Assembly (NCBI GenBank): GCA_028817015.1
Contig: JAPPQJ010000037.1
Span: 1-38,284 of the forward strand
From: Gammaproteobacteria bacterium
GTDB lineage: Bacteria > Pseudomonadota > Gammaproteobacteria > Arenicellales > Poriferihabitantaceae
DNA: 38,284 nt
Reading direction: 5' to 3'
Positions 2-23,593 of this stretch are shown here, in pieces (the first letter of the stretch is position 1; every line of letters begins with the position of its first letter). The position numbers and the translations under genes were made by a program. A model generated the notes under the pieces. That model was not told where the DNA came from and made no database searches. It was given only the letters and a program-made list of their open reading frames with translations.

Positions 2-3000
2 TTCACCGTGCGCATCTCCTCGCCCACCGGCGGCGGCGCGATTGTCGGCAGCGGGCTGACCGTCTCCGACACCGACGATTCGGCGCAGGCGACCATTTCC
101 GCCAGCGACCCGGTCCAAGTCAGCCTCGCCCGGCGCAGCGGCCAGAGCGGCGCGGTCATCGAGGGCAGCAACGCCGAGTTCACCGTGTCCCTGGTTCTCA
201 CCGCGGCCACCAGCACCGCCGCCACCGCCGCCAACCCCATCTGCGTAACTTTCCGCACCGAAATCACCGCCCAGCAGAATCCGTCCGGCATGGCAAACAC
301 CGCATCCAACGCCGATGTGGAAGTGCGCGACTGTGCCGGCATGACAGTCGCCGTCGTCGCCACCGGCCTGACCAACGACGGCGGCGTCATTATTCCGGCT
401 GGCCAATCCTCGGCCACCCTGCGCGTGCTGGCGCGATACGACGACATCGATGAAGGCATGACCGACGAGGAATTGACCGTCCAAATCTCCGCCGCCGCTT
501 TCCAACCGGCCCTCACCGGCGCCACCGCCCCGGTCATCGACACCAACCAGGAGACGGTGTCGGTCGACATCCAAAACACCAACGCCCTGCGCACCATCGC
601 CGCCGAAACCGTGACCGCGACCGTCAACGAAGACGAAACCGCGTTCCTGTTTCGCATCACCTTGAACGGCAACCCGCCGGTGAGTGCGTTCACCGTGCAA
701 TGGAGCGTGACCGACGAGGAAAACAACCCGTCCACCACCGCCGGCGGCCGGGTGACCGCCAGCCACGGCGCGGCCCACGAATTCAACGGCGGGCCCAGCG
801 GCAGCGTCACCTTCCCGGCCGGCGGCACCACACCGGTCAGTATGGATGTCCCGGTCACCGTGCGCAACGACGCCTACAACGAAGGCGCGGAAACCCTGAC
901 CCTGGCCGTCACCGACCCCTGCCCGGCCAGCGGCACCTGCGAAGTCGGCGGCCGCGAATCCACCGACCCGCAAGCCGCGCCGGCCCTGGCCTTGAGCCGC
1001 GCCACCTCCACGGTAAGCGTGGCCGCCAGCGACCCCATCGCCCTCAGCATCGCCGGCGGCCCCACCGCCCTGGTCGCCGGCCAGTTCGCCGAATACCCCC
1101 TCCACTTCGGCTGTGCCAACGGCGAGAGCGGTCCCGGCTGCACCGAGGTCATCCCGACCACCGACTTAACCGTCCCGCTCACCGTCACCGTCGGCGGCAC
1201 CGCCGTAACCGTCCCGGCCCGCGTGGTCGCCCGCGGCTCCCGCACCTTCACCCTCACCGCCGCCGAAATCAACATGGGCGGCGAAAACCACGGCGAAACC
1301 CTGTCCGTAACCCCCGGCACCCCCACCAGCCTGCCCGGCGACGCCACCGCCACCGTCGCCACCGGCACAACCGCCACCGCAACCGCGGTCATGGGCTGGA
1401 CCGTCACCCTGTCCGCGAACCGCACCAGCGCGCCGGAAGGCAGCACCTTCGAGTTCACCCTCACCCTGAACGGCGCGGCGTCCGAACTGGCCGGCGGCGG
1501 CATCAGCGTGCCGTGGGCGATAACCGGCGCCGGCGACAACGCCGTTCGCGTGGATGGCGACGACTTCGAGGGTGCGCGCAGCGGCACGGTGGAATTCACC
1601 CCGGTCTCCCCGGTGAGGCAGACGGTCAGCGTGGTCACTGCGCGCAACGACGACAACAACCCGGACTCCGACACCGAGATGTTCGCCTTCACCATCGGCG
1701 CGCTGACCGGCGGCGACGCCGCGCGCGCCGACATCGTCGGCGAGGACGCGCAGGGCATGTTCGCCCTCACCGCCACCATCGGCCCGCCGGTGGATGAGGA
1801 TGTCGCGGCCCTGAACCGCGTCATCATGCCCGAGGTCGCGCGCGCGATTGCCGACTCGCAGATGCAGGCGGTTTCCGGCCGGTTGCGCGGCGGTTTTGGT
1901 GGTGGCGCGGCGTTGGCGATGAACCTCGGCGGGCAATCCTCGCTGTCCGCGCTGGCGGCGCAGAACCTCCAAGCGCTGGCGGACGATGCGGTCGACTGGA
2001 AACGGATGGCGGACAACTCGGCGTTCCAAATGCCGCTTGGAGTCGGCGGCGGCGGCGGTGCGGCCGGCACTTTCTGGGGCGGCGGCGAATTCCGCGGCAT
2101 CGGCGGCGAGAGCGGCAGCACCAAGTGGGACGGCGATTTGTTCAGCGCCCACTTGGGATTCGACGCGCGGCTGAGCGCGGGCTTGCTCGGCGGGTTGCTG
2201 CTTTCATACAGCGAGGCGGCCATCGAGGATTATTCGCGCATCGACACCACGCGCAGCGGCCGCCCGGCCGTGAAAGGCGACTGGTTGCTGGAGATGACCA
2301 GTTTGAGCCCGTATCTCGGCTGGCGCGGCGACAGCGGCGTGGAAGGCTGGGCGCTGGCCAGTTACGGCAGCGGCGATTTGGACATCGAGGAGCGCGGCGG
2401 GCGGCGGGCCAGCGATGTGACCCTGCAAACCATCGGCGTTGGCATCAGCGGTGCGGTGTCGAAGGCCGGGGACCGCGAGTTGCGCGTGAAGGCCGATGTG
2501 TTCGCCACCCGCGCCGAGGTGGACGACAGCAAAACCGTCAGCGGCGACCAACTCGGCACCATTCTCGGCGATGAGTTGAGCGCCAGCCGCGTGCGCGTGC
2601 TGCTGGATTTGCGCCACACCCGCGCACTGGCCGGCGGCGCCAGTTTGGATTCCAGCGGCGAGTTCGGCGCCCGATACGACAACGGCGACGGCCGCACCGG
2701 TGGCGGCTTGGAGTTGGGCGGCGGCATGAAATACCGCAACGCGGCCCTCGGCCTGACGCTGGAAGGGCGCACCCGCGGCTTAATCGGCCACAGCGCCGAC
2801 TACGACGACTGGGGCATCAGTGGCGCCGTGAAACTGGAAGCGGGCGCAGACGGCCAGGGCCTGTCGTTGTCGCTAAGCCCCGCCTACGGTAACACCGCCG
2901 GCGGCTCGCAGGCGATATGGGACGGCGGGCTGTTCAGTAACGGCGCCGGCGATGACGCCGCGCCTGAACTGCGCGCGCGCATGGATGTCAAGGCCGGCTA

Positions 3001-3202
3001 CGGCGTCAAGGCGTTCGCCGGCACCGGCCTGCTGACGCCGTATAGCGGCGTATCGTTCGGCGACGGCCAGCGCAGTTACCGCCTCGGCGTGGAATGGAAT
3101 TCCGGCGAGCGCCTGCGCCTGAAACTAAGCGGCGAGCGCCTGGAAACCGACGACACCGCGACCACCCACGGCATCCTGTTCAAGGGCGAGATGTGGTTTT
3201 GA
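2..3202 (+). CDS. Calx-beta-like repeat protein with C-terminal autotransporter beta-barrel (5' truncated by window edge)
   Basis: ORF open to the left window edge; repeated modules such as 'TVNEDETAFLFRITLNG' and 'SAPEGSTFEFTLTLNG'; C-terminal ~270 aa of alternating beta-strand pattern starting near 'GTFWGGGEFRG' and ending in a terminal aromatic (GEMWF). Confidence 0.75.
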   Translation, partial: FTVRISSPTGGGAIVGSGLTVSDTDDSAQATISASDPVQVSLARRSGQSGAVIEGSNAEFTVSLVLTAATSTAATAANPICVTFRTEITAQQNPSGMANTASNADVEVRDCAGMTVAVVATGLTNDGGVIIPAGQSSATLRVLARYDDIDEGMTDEELTVQISAAAFQPALTGATAPVIDTNQETVSVDIQNTNALRTIAAETVTATVNEDETAFLFRITLNGNPPVSAFTVQWSVTDEENNPSTTAGGRVTASHGAAHEFNGGPSGSVTFPAGGTTPVSMDVPVTVRNDAYNEGAETLTLAVTDPCPASGTCEVGGRESTDPQAAPALALSRATSTVSVAASDPIALSIAGGPTALVAGQFAEYPLHFGCANGESGPGCTEVIPTTDLTVPLTVTVGGTAVTVPARVVARGSRTFTLTAAEINMGGENHGETLSVTPGTPTSLPGDATATVATGTTATATAVMGWTVTLSANRTSAPEGSTFEFTLTLNGAASELAGGGISVPWAITGAGDNAVRVDGDDFEGARSGTVEFTPVSPVRQTVSVVTARNDDNNPDSDTEMFAFTIGALTGGDAARADIVGEDAQGMFALTATIGPPVDEDVAALNRVIMPEVARAIADSQMQAVSGRLRGGFGGGAALAMNLGGQSSLSALAAQNLQALADDAVDWKRMADNSAFQMPLGVGGGGGAAGTFWGGGEFRGIGGESGSTKWDGDLFSAHLGFDARLSAGLLGGLLLSYSEAAIEDYSRIDTTRSGRPAVKGDWLLEMTSLSPYLGWRGDSGVEGWALASYGSGDLDIEERGGRRASDVTLQTIGVGISGAVSKAGDRELRVKADVFATRAEVDDSKTVSGDQLGTILGDELSASRVRVLLDLRHTRALAGGASLDSSGEFGARYDNGDGRTGGGLELGGGMKYRNAALGLTLEGRTRGLIGHSADYDDWGISGAVKLEAGADGQGLSLSLSPAYGNTAGGSQAIWDGGLFSNGAGDDAAPELRARMDVKAGYGVKAFAGTGLLTPYSGVSFGDGQRSYRLGVEWNSGERLRLKLSGERLETDDTATTHGILFKGEMWF

Positions 3203-14644: not shown

Positions 14645-15970
14645 CTAAGTTTTCGGTGCGGTTTTGGGGGTTTCGGCGGCCTCCACCGGAGCCGTCCCCG
14701 CGGCGGAAGGCATCTGCGCGTCCGGCCGTCTGCCGGGCGGGCGCTTATGCAGCGCGCCCATCGCATCCAGCACCCTGGTTAGATACTCCTCGGCGGTGAC
14801 CCGGCCCAGCGCGCCGGCCGTGCAATCGGCCTCGTTGTAGCGGCTGACGGCGTCTCGCCGGCCGCCGGGGCTGCCGACCAGCACCGGCACCGGGTCGCCG
14901 GTGTGTTCGCCGCTGAGCGAATCGGTCGAGTGGTCGGCGCACACCCCGACCACGCTGCCGCTCAGGTCGAGGCGCCCCAGTGCGCGGTCAAAGCGGCCGA
15001 TGAAGTCCGCCTTGAGGCGCGGGTTTTTGTCGTGCGCGGCGGTGTCGGTGCCCTTGATGTGTACAAACACCAGGTCATGAGACTCGAGTGCCCGGACCGC
15101 CACCCGGAGTTTTTCGCCGAGATCGGTGTCCGGCAGCGAAGTGAAACGGGGGCTGTTATAGCAGTGGAAATCAAGCAGTTTGGCCAGCCCCAGTACGGTG
15201 GTCTCGCCGGCCACCGCCGCCACCTTGAGGCCGAGATGCGAGAGGCGGGTTTGCAGCGGCTGATGGGCGCCCGCGCTCCTAAGGATTAGCCCGTTGGCCG
15301 CGGGCTGCCCTCGTTCGACGCGCGCGGTATTGACCGGGTGGTCCCGCAACAGTTCGTGGGCGCGCCGGGTCAGGCGGTTGACCGCGTCGGCGGTGGATTG
15401 CGCGCCGGCGTTTTCGGGTACGGCGTCGAGGATGCCGAGGTGCATGGCCGGCCCGCCCGGGTCGGTGTCGCTGACCTGTGCCGACAGTCGGTCGCCGCGC
15501 AACCGCACCACCGCCCGGTGCTGGGTCGCCGGATGCACGCTGGCGGTGATGCCGGGCCCGACTTCCAGGTCTTGGAGCACGGCGCACAGCGACTCGACCT
15601 GGTCGCGAATGCGCCCGGCGCGGCGGTCGAGGATGCGCAGGCCGCGCGCGCTCCTTTCCACACAGGCAAAATTGGCCCGCAACAGGATGTCTCCGGGGCG
15701 AAAGTCCAGTCCGAGTCCGGCCGCCTCGACCGGCCCGCGGCGCAGGCGCACGGCCTCGGCGGGCGGTAATCCGAACAGGATGCCGATGCCGGTGTGGGTG
15801 CCCACCGGCCGGTTCGGCATCAGCGGGTCCATCATCCCGCATTGGTGGCGTTGCGCCAGACCGTCGAGGGTCGGCGTCCGGGCCGCTTGCAGCGGGGTTC
15901 GGCCGCCCAGTTGCGGGCACGGCCGGTCGCCCAGCCCGTCCAGGATGAACACCAGGCCTTTGTTTTTCAC
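14645..15970 (-). CDS. apgM: cofactor-independent phosphoglycerate mutase, archaeal ApgM-type (alkaline phosphatase superfamily)
   Basis: 'FILDGLGDRPCPQLGGRTPLQAARTPTLDGLAQ', 'RRGPVEAAGLGL', 'DHSTDSLSGEHTGDPVPVLV'; overlaps the upstream kinase gene by 4 nt. Confidence 0.8.
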   Translation of the reverse strand: MKNKGLVFILDGLGDRPCPQLGGRTPLQAARTPTLDGLAQRHQCGMMDPLMPNRPVGTHTGIGILFGLPPAEAVRLRRGPVEAAGLGLDFRPGDILLRANFACVERSARGLRILDRRAGRIRDQVESLCAVLQDLEVGPGITASVHPATQHRAVVRLRGDRLSAQVSDTDPGGPAMHLGILDAVPENAGAQSTADAVNRLTRRAHELLRDHPVNTARVERGQPAANGLILRSAGAHQPLQTRLSHLGLKVAAVAGETTVLGLAKLLDFHCYNSPRFTSLPDTDLGEKLRVAVRALESHDLVFVHIKGTDTAAHDKNPRLKADFIGRFDRALGRLDLSGSVVGVCADHSTDSLSGEHTGDPVPVLVGSPGGRRDAVSRYNEADCTAGALGRVTAEEYLTRVLDAMGALHKRPPGRRPDAQMPSAAGTAPVEAAETPKTAPKT

Positions 15971-17160
15971 CGGTATTTGGCCCGCAGCGACGCCAGACGG
16001 CGTTTGTTGTAGGTGGCGGCGATGGTCAAGTTAATGGTTTTGATGATTTCGTTGACCGTTTCTTCGCGGTCGAGGTTGTTCAGAATTTGAATGTCGTCGT
16101 TGTCCGCCTCCGACAGCAGGGCCGACTGCAATTGCCAGATGTCGTCTATTTTTTTCAGGTAGCGCGCCGCCCGGCGCTGGCGGGTTTTCTCCCGCCGCCC
16201 CTTAATGCGGCTAATCAGCGCGTTTTTGTCGAGCACGCACAGGACGCACGGCACGATGACCGCATCGCCTCCGCAAATGTGCGGCAACAGCGTTGGCCGG
16301 ATGTGGACGCCCTCGACAATCATCGACACGCGCTCGTTGATGGCGCGTTGCAACACCGCCTGGCACGCCACTTCCACCAGTTCGCTCTGGCGCTGAAAGC
16401 CGTAGACCAGGTGTTCCTCGTCCTTGACCACATTGAGTTCGGCGCTGTCCACCGCGTTGCCGGCGTTGAATGACGACTTGTGCAGCAGCGGTGAAACGCG
16501 CTCGGGGATGAGAATGCGCATCACCTCCCTTAGCATATCCGTGGACTGCGTGCGCACGATGCCGAGGCTGTTGGCCAGGTCGGTGGCGACGCTGCTCTTG
16601 CCGGCCCCGGGAACCCCGCCGATCAGCACCAGCAGCGGCTGATCGTTGTCGATAAAATCATTCCAAATCAAATAGTAGTCGGCATATTCCTGATGCAGTT
16701 CCTTAACAATAGTTCGGTATGTGACCGAGGTCAGTTCCGCGGTCGTAATCTGGCGCTGTTTGTCGCGCACCAACTTGCTGTGAATGAGGCGGGCGATGGC
16801 GTTGCATTTGCCTGGCGGCAGGGAGCAACTCTCCAGGCGCTGGGCGTGGATGCCCCGGGAAAAGGGCGCGCTGTGGCCGTCGCTGTATACCACCTGGAGG
16901 TTTTCCCGATACAGGTCTTCGCGGCTGTATCGCCGCAGCACCTTGCCGGGGTGCTCTTCGGCGAGGGCGTCGATGATGCGCGCGCGCAAATCCCCGGTGG
17001 TGATGACCTCGGTGTCGTCCAGATCATCGCGAATGTTGGTGGCCAGTTGATAGGCCTCGGTGAATTCCAGGCCGGCATCCTGCAGCGACCTGGTCAGCAT
17101 TCCCCGCAAAAAGGGAACCCGGGCGTCGCGCTGCTCGTCGATTACCAGTAGTTTAGCCAT
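15967..17160 (-). CDS. 2-phosphoglycerate kinase-like protein (ATP-cone-like N-terminus plus P-loop kinase)
   Basis: P-loop 'LLVLIGGVPGAGKSSVATDLANSLGIVRTQSTDMLREVMR' and 'SMIVEGVHIRPTLLPHI'; N-terminal 'LLVIDEQRDARVPFLRGMLTRSLQDAGLEFTEAYQLA' resembles ATP-cone. Confidence 0.8.
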   Translation of the reverse strand: MAKLLVIDEQRDARVPFLRGMLTRSLQDAGLEFTEAYQLATNIRDDLDDTEVITTGDLRARIIDALAEEHPGKVLRRYSREDLYRENLQVVYSDGHSAPFSRGIHAQRLESCSLPPGKCNAIARLIHSKLVRDKQRQITTAELTSVTYRTIVKELHQEYADYYLIWNDFIDNDQPLLVLIGGVPGAGKSSVATDLANSLGIVRTQSTDMLREVMRILIPERVSPLLHKSSFNAGNAVDSAELNVVKDEEHLVYGFQRQSELVEVACQAVLQRAINERVSMIVEGVHIRPTLLPHICGGDAVIVPCVLCVLDKNALISRIKGRREKTRQRRAARYLKKIDDIWQLQSALLSEADNDDIQILNNLDREETVNEIIKTINLTIAATYNKRRLASLRAKYR

Positions 17161-20977: not shown

Positions 20978-23593
20978 CTAAAGGTTTTCAATCACCTTTG
21001 ACAATGCCCGGGGTGAATCGTGATGGATCAGTTTGCCCTTTTCCACGACCAAAATCCGGTCAAAGCGCGCCGCCAGCGCCGGGTCGTTCAGCGCCCAAAT
21101 CAAGTTGCGGCCCCGGCGCCGGGCGATGATGCGGTCCAGGATGCGGGAAAAACTCTTGCCGTCCAGCCCTGACAGGGTGTTGTTGATGATGAGGATGTCC
21201 GGGTTTTTAAGCAGCGCCCTGGCCAAAGTCAGTTTCTGCTGGGCGTTGGGCGCCAACTTGGAGCCGCCGGCGCCGGCCGGGCAGTTCAGGCTGGCCAGCA
21301 CGATTTCCTGGTTCAACCCGGTGCTTTTGAGGGTGTTTCTAATGGTTTCGGTGACGCGCGGCTGCAAGTGCCCTTTGGCGTAGGTGATTCTGCCGAACAG
21401 GAGGTTTTCCTGCACCGACATGCCGGGATTATACCGGTTTCGGTCGAAAAACCGGATTTGATCGTTGTCCGCCCCCAATTCGCGCATGAGCTCTTTCCGG
21501 GCGGCCAGCACCTTTTCCTGAATCGGCGGCGTGATCAAATCCAGGCGGTGGCGGGCCGGGCACAGTTTGAAACTGACCGCCGACAACCGGGCCTGCTGTT
21601 GCGGGCTCATCGCGCCTGCACCGCCGGCGCCGGCTTCGGCCACCAGGCGCCGGTAGTCGGGCAGGTCGGCGGCCTTGATGAAACTGAATTGCTCGAATAA
21701 CTCGCTGTCATCGGGCACATCCGAGAACAACTCGACCATCAGGCCGGCCAACTCCAGGCCGATGTCACTGAGGTCCCGGCGCAGGCCGGTGGTGTCCAGA
21801 ATGCCCCCGCCCAGCCGCGGATTGGCGGCCAGGAAATCGGCCACCGGCATGCGCTCCTTGAGCGTGCCGAACAGCAGGTTTTCCTCCACCGTCAGGTTGT
21901 GGATGTATTTGTCCGAGTCCAGCGGCTCGATGATCGCGCCCCCCTCAATCTGGTTGATTTGATCGATCAACTGGCCGCGCAGGGTGACGATCTGGTCGGC
22001 CAGCCGCCCGGGGATGTCGATGTCCCCCTCGGTGCGCAGTGCCAGGGTCAGCAATTCGTCGTCCAGTTCCACGCATTCAATGATGTCCATCACGGTTTGG
22101 CGGAATTGCGCCGGGTCGCCGGCCCCGGACAGGCCGATGTTCACCCAGTCGGCGTCGATGTCCTGGGTGGAGTTGCCGGAGGCGAGGGATTCCTTGATTT
22201 GGGCGCGGCGCGCCGCGGACGCATCGGGGGCGGTTTGCGGCTGGTGTTTCAGGCCGTAATACAGATTGTCGCCAATCGAGGCGTTGAACAGCCGCGAGGT
22301 GGCGGAGCAATAGCCGATGCGCTGGCCGGTCACCGATTCGGGCAGGGCGTGCAGGTCGGCCTCGCCGACGCTGAGCGACCCGGAACTGGGGGTCAGCAAC
22401 CGCGCCAGCAGTTGGGTCAACTCGTCGCCGGCGGTGCCGTCTTTGCTGAGGATAACGCTGTGGCGGTTGCTGTCGGTCTCGAAGTTGAATTCGTCCACCC
22501 GGGTCACGCCGTCCTCGGCGTAACTCAGGCGGTTGGCGTGCAGTTTTCCGGCCAGCGGCTGCGCCGGCGGAGGGGGGTCGGCGGCTTCCAGGGTCTTCGG
22601 GTCGAGCATCCCGTCGGGGGCGAATTGCTCGATGATCTGGGCGTATTTGACCCGGATGTCCTCGGTAATCTGGTAGAACTTAAGCAATTCCTTCCACGGC
22701 GGGGCAATGTCCTTGTATGCGGCCAGCACCGCCACCAATGCGCCCAATGACAACTCGTTGGTCAGCACCAGGTAGCCGCCGATGGAATAGAAAAAGAACG
22801 GGGTCAACTGGGCCAGGAAGTTGTTGAGGAACTTGATGAAAAATTTGCGCCGGTAGATTTCATTGCGCACCCCGAAGATGCCGCCCAGCCGCCGGCTGAT
22901 GTCGGCGCGCTCGAAATGGCCGGTGTCGTTGGCGTGAATGTCGGCGATGCCGGCGACCGATTCGCCGATGCGGTCGGCTAACTTGCGCACCTTCTGCACG
23001 CGCGTTTTGCTGAGTTCATTGACCTTGTGCTGGAGCCGGGGAATCAGGTAGATCTGCGGCGGATACAGCGCGATGGCGGCCAGCCCGAGCCAGAAATCCT
23101 GCACGAAGATGAACGACAGATAGGTGATCAGCAAGCCGCCCTGCATCACCGGCAAGGCCACCGAATCGCCGATAAAACCGCCCAGCGGCTCGGTTTCGGC
23201 GGTCACCATCGGGATGATTTCGCTGGAACTGATGTTTTTGAAATGGGGCAGGGGGAAGCGCAGGATGCGGGTATACAAAGTGTATCGGAAGCGCCGCAGC
23301 ATGCGCTCGCCAAGCACGCCCCGGTATACATTGATGATGTATTTCATCCCGCCGTTGATGATCACCATGGCCAAAAACAGGAAACTGAGCAGCAGCAGAT
23401 ACTGGATTTGAGTCAGTTCATAGCCGAGCACCTCGAAGATCACGGCGCCGCCGCCGATGGCCTTGTTGATGATGAGTTTGGGGATTTCCAGCGAGTAATA
23501 GACCAGCGGCATCGAGGACAAGGTCAGCAACACCAGCCATATCTGATCCTTCCTGGTGTGCCGCAGGATGTATTTGTAAATGGACTTTTCCAT
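20978..23593 (-). CDS. ABC exporter-like protein with TMD and a catalytically degenerate, expanded nucleotide-binding domain
   Basis: N-terminal ~300 aa ABC_membrane-like with several TM helices; NBD-like C-terminus retains fold cues ('LLARLLTPSSGSLSVGEADLHAL', 'LTLARALLKNPDILIINNTLSGLD', 'DPALAARFDRILVVEKGKLI') but lacks canonical catalytic motifs. Confidence 0.85.
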   Translation of the reverse strand: MEKSIYKYILRHTRKDQIWLVLLTLSSMPLVYYSLEIPKLIINKAIGGGAVIFEVLGYELTQIQYLLLLSFLFLAMVIINGGMKYIINVYRGVLGERMLRRFRYTLYTRILRFPLPHFKNISSSEIIPMVTAETEPLGGFIGDSVALPVMQGGLLITYLSFIFVQDFWLGLAAIALYPPQIYLIPRLQHKVNELSKTRVQKVRKLADRIGESVAGIADIHANDTGHFERADISRRLGGIFGVRNEIYRRKFFIKFLNNFLAQLTPFFFYSIGGYLVLTNELSLGALVAVLAAYKDIAPPWKELLKFYQITEDIRVKYAQIIEQFAPDGMLDPKTLEAADPPPPAQPLAGKLHANRLSYAEDGVTRVDEFNFETDSNRHSVILSKDGTAGDELTQLLARLLTPSSGSLSVGEADLHALPESVTGQRIGYCSATSRLFNASIGDNLYYGLKHQPQTAPDASAARRAQIKESLASGNSTQDIDADWVNIGLSGAGDPAQFRQTVMDIIECVELDDELLTLALRTEGDIDIPGRLADQIVTLRGQLIDQINQIEGGAIIEPLDSDKYIHNLTVEENLLFGTLKERMPVADFLAANPRLGGGILDTTGLRRDLSDIGLELAGLMVELFSDVPDDSELFEQFSFIKAADLPDYRRLVAEAGAGGAGAMSPQQQARLSAVSFKLCPARHRLDLITPPIQEKVLAARKELMRELGADNDQIRFFDRNRYNPGMSVQENLLFGRITYAKGHLQPRVTETIRNTLKSTGLNQEIVLASLNCPAGAGGSKLAPNAQQKLTLARALLKNPDILIINNTLSGLDGKSFSRILDRIIARRRGRNLIWALNDPALAARFDRILVVEKGKLIHHDSPRALSKVIENL

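Follow-up and report, generated by a model that had tools for sequence, protein, structure and literature searches.

An 871-amino-acid protein encoded in the 38,284-nt stretch of DNA analysed here (the window) shows a type IV ABC exporter fold, with an ABC_membrane transmembrane domain (TMD) and a nucleotide-binding domain (NBD) fold, yet fails every catalytic feature of ATP-driven exporters that we tested. ATP-driven transport is what defines ABC exporters; the family to which this protein belongs keeps its TMD under strong selection and has lost the ATPase. In our judgement there is an even chance that the protein belongs to a surface-glycan pathway as a membrane component, with a non-catalytic NBD and with control coming from a cyclic-nucleotide-binding (cNMP) partner.

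Table 1 Features of the pseudo-ABC exporter locus in window coordinates.
Feature	Residues	Position	Strand	Basis
871-aa pseudo-ABC exporter gene		20978..23593	minus	Uninterrupted ORF, ATG start
Transmembrane domain, most conserved part	1-325	22619..23593	minus	Pfam PF00664; TMD identity above NBD identity
Walker A position, SKDGTAGDE	383-391	22421..22447	minus	BmrA alignment
Q-loop position, RIGYCSA (Gln to Ala431)	425-431	22301..22321	minus	BmrA alignment
Repeat copy 1, post-Q-loop segment	~425-520	22034..22321	minus	hhalign of family sub-alignments
Repeat copy 2, within insertion, LTVEENLLFG	~542-614	21752..21970	minus	hhalign
Repeat copy 3, MSVQENLLFG, runs into signature region	~702-770	21284..21490	minus	hhalign
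ABC signature position, LAPNA	780-784	21242..21256	minus	BmrA alignment
Walker B position, DILIINN, and preserved D-loop, SGLD	799-805; 808-811	21161..21199	minus	
H-loop position, RNLIWALND (His to Asn836)	829-837	21083..21109	minus	
cNMP-binding-domain protein gene, ~170 aa		23690..24211	minus	Pfam PF00027, 2e-18

Pairwise alignment with BmrA placed the strings quoted in the original prediction at the Walker A, Q-loop, signature, Walker B and H-loop positions, in agreement with its claim that all five catalytic motifs of the NBD are replaced. The Walker A Lys and Ser/Thr have become Gly389 and Asp390, the Walker B Asp-Glu pair is Asn804-Asn805 (INN, residues 803–805) and the H-loop string IWALND spans residues 832–837. 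Walker A, LSGGQ, the Walker B Asp and catalytic Glu, the H-loop His and the Q-loop Gln are therefore all missing. The D-loop and the transmembrane half persist in the open reading frame, as predicted: Asp811 is retained, and Pfam detects ABC_membrane (PF00664) at 65.6 bits (7.8e-18), above its cut-off, together with a weak ABC_tran match (PF00005, 32.5 bits against a 25-bit cut-off). The original prediction had allowed that canonical motifs might lie elsewhere in the protein. A string search of all 871 residues for GxxxxGK[ST], LSGG, hydrophobic-DE and [AS]H[RD] found none, indicating that the catalytic motifs have not been relocated. That the protein is not an autonomous ATPase is well supported.

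Not foreseen in the original prediction was an insertion (residues ~448–712) that splits the NBD between the Q-loop and the signature and holds two extra copies of the ‘NLLYG’ segment found after the Q-loop. Using hhalign on three family sub-alignments, we obtained scores of 36 (copy 1 versus 2), 36 (copy 1 versus 3) and 81 (copy 2 versus 3), compared with a maximum of 18 among 100 column-permuted alignments per pair. An AlphaFold2 model of the NBD alone (pLDDT 80.6) superposes on the solved ComA NBD with a TM-score of 0.74 by target length. The structural comparison with exporters proposed earlier also agreed with the assigned fold, as the full-length model, in which the TMD is of low confidence, matches P-gp, TmrAB and BmrA (Foldseek E 1e-12 to 1e-14). 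Both the insertion and the low confidence of the TMD keep its global TM-scores against full transporters poor.

Searches of GTDB contigs gave 9 loci with relatives, and 321 plasmid records, mostly from Rhizobium and Sinorhizobium, also contain them; the family spans Alpha- and Gammaproteobacteria with intact orthologues in many orders. With the window’s own genome counted each time, it is present in 30/40 close relatives, 4/274 genomes of the class and 22/299 of the phylum, one of the last (G423) carrying a TMD-only version. Homologues carry a plain ABC transporter annotation, no NCBIfam model accepts the 871-aa protein (best score 109 bits against a cut-off of 725), and a literature search, with most subscription journals outside its coverage, returned no description of such a family. 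We considered whether the Sinorhizobium meliloti copy is msbA2/SMb21191 and rejected this, the msbA2 operon lying near 938 kb of pSymB and the homologue at 842 kb.

Among 59 aligned family members, none has the full catalytic set. No member keeps more than 5 of 8 canonical features, and 19/59 keep none. The Walker A Lys is retained in 17/59 and the Walker B Glu in 15/59, while the Walker B Asp (12/59) and the H-loop His (3/59) are rarer; some Gammaproteobacterial members retain GxxGSGK[DE]E and LIxNE. Homologues with intact motifs, which according to the original prediction would point to recent local degeneration, thus exist, with the motifs partly intact, and the lack of any complete set argues that motif loss is not recent local decay. 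A TMD-only tree requires at least 8 changes of the Walker A Lys and at least 10 of the Walker B Glu, suggesting that the ATPase site was repeatedly lost or altered. The most canonical members (L058 and L032) keep the Walker A Lys and Ser and the Walker B Asp and Glu; their signature is altered and the H-loop His is absent.

These counts bear on the idea that nucleotide is still bound or slowly hydrolysed through non-canonical chemistry. The preserved NBD fold and the members with a Walker A Lys or Walker B Glu are in its favour, and relatives that keep both residues may still bind ATP. Against it, the clade of the 871-aa protein lacks both. A compensating swap, with an acid at the Walker A Ser/Thr and Asn at Walker B, was suggested by raw counts but was not supported by a tree-based test. 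We therefore judge non-canonical chemistry very improbable for this protein.

Selection on the gene is purifying. Compared with the nearest relative, dN/dS (NG86) was 0.115 overall, 0.053 in the TMD and 0.10–0.21 in parts of the NBD, and compared with the next relative 0.24 overall, at dS values of 0.7–1.3 that are moderately saturated. Mean identity among 22 members from the relatives of the 871-aa protein was 70% in the TMD and 42% in the NBD, the TMD being higher in 100% of pairs. MsbA, analysed as a control in 30 genomes of the same relatives set, gave the reverse (TMD 42%, NBD 59%; TMD higher in 3% of pairs). Across the whole 59-member set the TMD is more conserved in 99.8% of pairs, and 76 of its 325 columns are at least 90% conserved. 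The data show a conserved system that can do without the ATPase but not without its membrane part. Together with the orthologues in many orders and the motif losses shared with the two nearest relatives, the low dN/dS supports the predicted selection for a non-ATPase role. As the prediction had also held, a decaying pseudogene is scarcely credible: although frameshifts or stops interrupt the gene in a few relatives (G004, G005 and G011; loci L039, L037 and L033, all draft assemblies), the idea is largely refuted by the intact frame, the dN/dS value and the breadth of intact orthologues.

The original prediction had also suggested pairing with an active ABC protein. The 871-aa protein would then be the degenerate half of a heterodimer of the TmrAB or TM287/288 kind, with the gene for its canonical ABC half-transporter located elsewhere. 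Exporters of this kind, in which one site of the heterodimer is degenerate, are well documented (for example, PMC12038006 and PMC5216877), and the window’s own genome holds ~90 other ABC_tran matches. Gene context does not support such a pairing. The genes flanking the ABC gene encode the cNMP-binding protein and a tail-specific protease, no ABC half-transporter gene is adjacent to it in the window, and in most genomes the family is represented by one copy. Fused members bear a cNMP domain, not a second NBD. Moreover, although TmrAB, TM287/288 and TAP likewise combine an ABC exporter fold with a degenerate nucleotide site, they have one active site, a canonical subunit and a known partner, whereas all examined members of this family are degenerate, and no partner gene adjoins the ABC gene here. 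We consequently consider a heterodimer quite unlikely. One ORF of the same genome (C109) at first resembled a second split NBD; the layout of its motif matches, ~800 aa apart, suggests UvrA.

The cNMP and glycosyltransferase links, neither of which featured in the original prediction, are more informative about function than the heterodimer idea. The cNMP gene lies upstream of the ABC gene on the same strand, separated by 96 bp; its start is uncertain, with the open frame running on to 24721. Its product shares the PF00027 domain and an intact GE...R binding motif with CRP/FNR proteins but differs from them in architecture: Pfam identified PF00027 alone and no HTH family, and the match to the CRP model ends at position 139 of 214. 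Homologues are likewise single-domain proteins or transporter-fused domains, with no DNA-binding domain found. In most loci examined they adjoin the ABC gene, upstream or downstream, or are fused to it, the fusions being at the ABC C-terminus (including L007, L075 and L073). The binding motif is well preserved, with Gly and Arg each in 45/45 sequences, Glu in 38/45 and Asp in 5 more. Related genomes with the ABC gene usually have the cNMP gene too, sometimes at a distance. The search among them found none in G004, G005 and G017, a partial match in G003 and, at the strict threshold, none in G019; in G004 and G005 the ABC copy is itself broken. Taken together, the cNMP protein very probably works together with the pseudo-ABC exporter.

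Neighbouring genes in relatives encode 2–4 glycosyltransferases, a histidine phosphatase, a polysaccharide deacetylase and a nucleotide-sugar dehydrogenase. Two glycosyltransferases recur from Rhizobium to Gammaproteobacteria: GT_A, the orthologue of Rhizobium etli redB, and GT_B, that of redA. Full-length ABC, GT_A (E < 1e-120) and GT_B (E < 1e-119) occur in the same 21 of 299 phylum genomes, own genome included. GT_A was found in 21/21 genomes with the full-length ABC gene and 0/278 others (Fisher p ~1e-32, kinship ignored), with no other genome of the 299 reaching 1e-70, and GT_B has weaker matches (E above 1e-76) in just 3 other phylum genomes. The TMD-only genome G423 has neither. In the class sample, GT_A is present in 3/3 further ABC genomes and is matched weakly in one other (G301). 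Of the close relatives, 30 carry ABC together with GT_A, one (G009) carries GT_A alone and 9 carry neither. In the window’s own genome, GT_A and GT_B lie apart from the ABC locus, on contigs C62 and C211, and the link there consequently comes from co-occurrence only. Earlier work on the locus may exist, given the redA/redB names in R. etli; a literature search for these genes in rhizobia, with most subscription journals outside its coverage, found nothing relevant. On the rhizobial plasmids L069, L070, L072 and L074, the cluster is preceded in conserved order by a peptide-type ABC importer (ATPase, binding protein and two permeases).

On the basis of these observations, the protein most likely translocates a glycan intermediate, or controls such translocation, with the cNMP protein as input. 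The transmembrane half would be the working part of the pseudo-ABC exporter; the NBD has kept its fold, lost its ATPase and acquired three copies of the post-Q-loop segment. The small cNMP-binding protein, adjacent or fused, would act with the membrane protein in the service of a glycan pathway that has dedicated glycosyltransferases. The membrane protein most likely lets a glycan or lipid-linked sugar pass, or gates or controls its passage, taking its control input from cyclic-nucleotide binding in place of ATP hydrolysis. In a bolder form of this scheme, which we regard as rather unlikely, both NBDs of a dimer would be dead and the protein would be a cyclic-nucleotide-gated, ATPase-independent translocator or channel for surface glycans, controlled by the adjacent or fused cNMP domain.

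The data show the loss of the catalytic residues, purifying selection, reversed conservation, the pattern of neighbours and fusions, and the co-occurrence; we infer the physical contact, the ligand binding, the substrate and any transport without an ATPase of its own. Since substrate movement belongs to this inferred part, a serious rival, if a somewhat unlikely one, is that the protein moves nothing and instead serves in the membrane as a sensor or scaffold, holding or regulating glycosyltransferases, with the TMD as anchor and the cNMP protein as input. The dead NBD, the cNMP neighbour and the near-obligate co-occurrence with two glycosyltransferase families would all suit such a role, but the number of strongly conserved TMD columns exceeds what a simple anchor would need. 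The family offers a direct test of whether an exporter fold that lacks an ATPase of its own can still work or signal, and it has members in the tractable rhizobia R. etli and S. meliloti.

The 871-aa protein shares the PF00664 TMD, NBD fold, domain order and detectable sequence similarity with MsbA, BmrA and P-glycoprotein (ABCB) but differs from them in its missing catalytic motifs, tripled post-Q-loop segment, large insertion, reversed TMD/NBD conservation and cNMP-binding partner. It scores 107 bits against the MsbA lipid A flippase model (TIGR02203; curated cut-off 602), whereas a separate MsbA in the same genome (L091) scores 661. PglK/Wzk-type ABC glycan flippases share the exporter fold and the association with glycosyltransferase genes but possess ATPase motifs, and the match of the 871-aa protein to NCBIfam PglK is just 49 bits (cut-off 1000).

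Roseobacter plasmids and two of the sampled genomes carry TMD-only relatives, which end shortly past the last helix. One, of 434 aa and without any NBD, lies on the conjugative Phaeobacter inhibens plasmid pP83_b (L071:11773-13077), flanked by genes for a plastocyanin-like copper protein and c-type cytochromes; further Roseobacter plasmids gave matches to the TMD alone. Their position among copper and cytochrome genes suggests that the TMD may serve other roles.

Elsewhere in the window, a 1064-aa ORF at its edge (8-3202, plus strand) matches no Pfam family at 1e-4 and could be either a genuine gene or a spurious frame. On the minus strand (14645-17160), a phosphoglycerate mutase gene (PhosphMutase/Metalloenzyme) lies beside one encoding an ATP-cone plus an AAA_33/zeta-type kinase, a pair that we take to resemble the archaeal 2-phosphoglycerate kinase arrangement.
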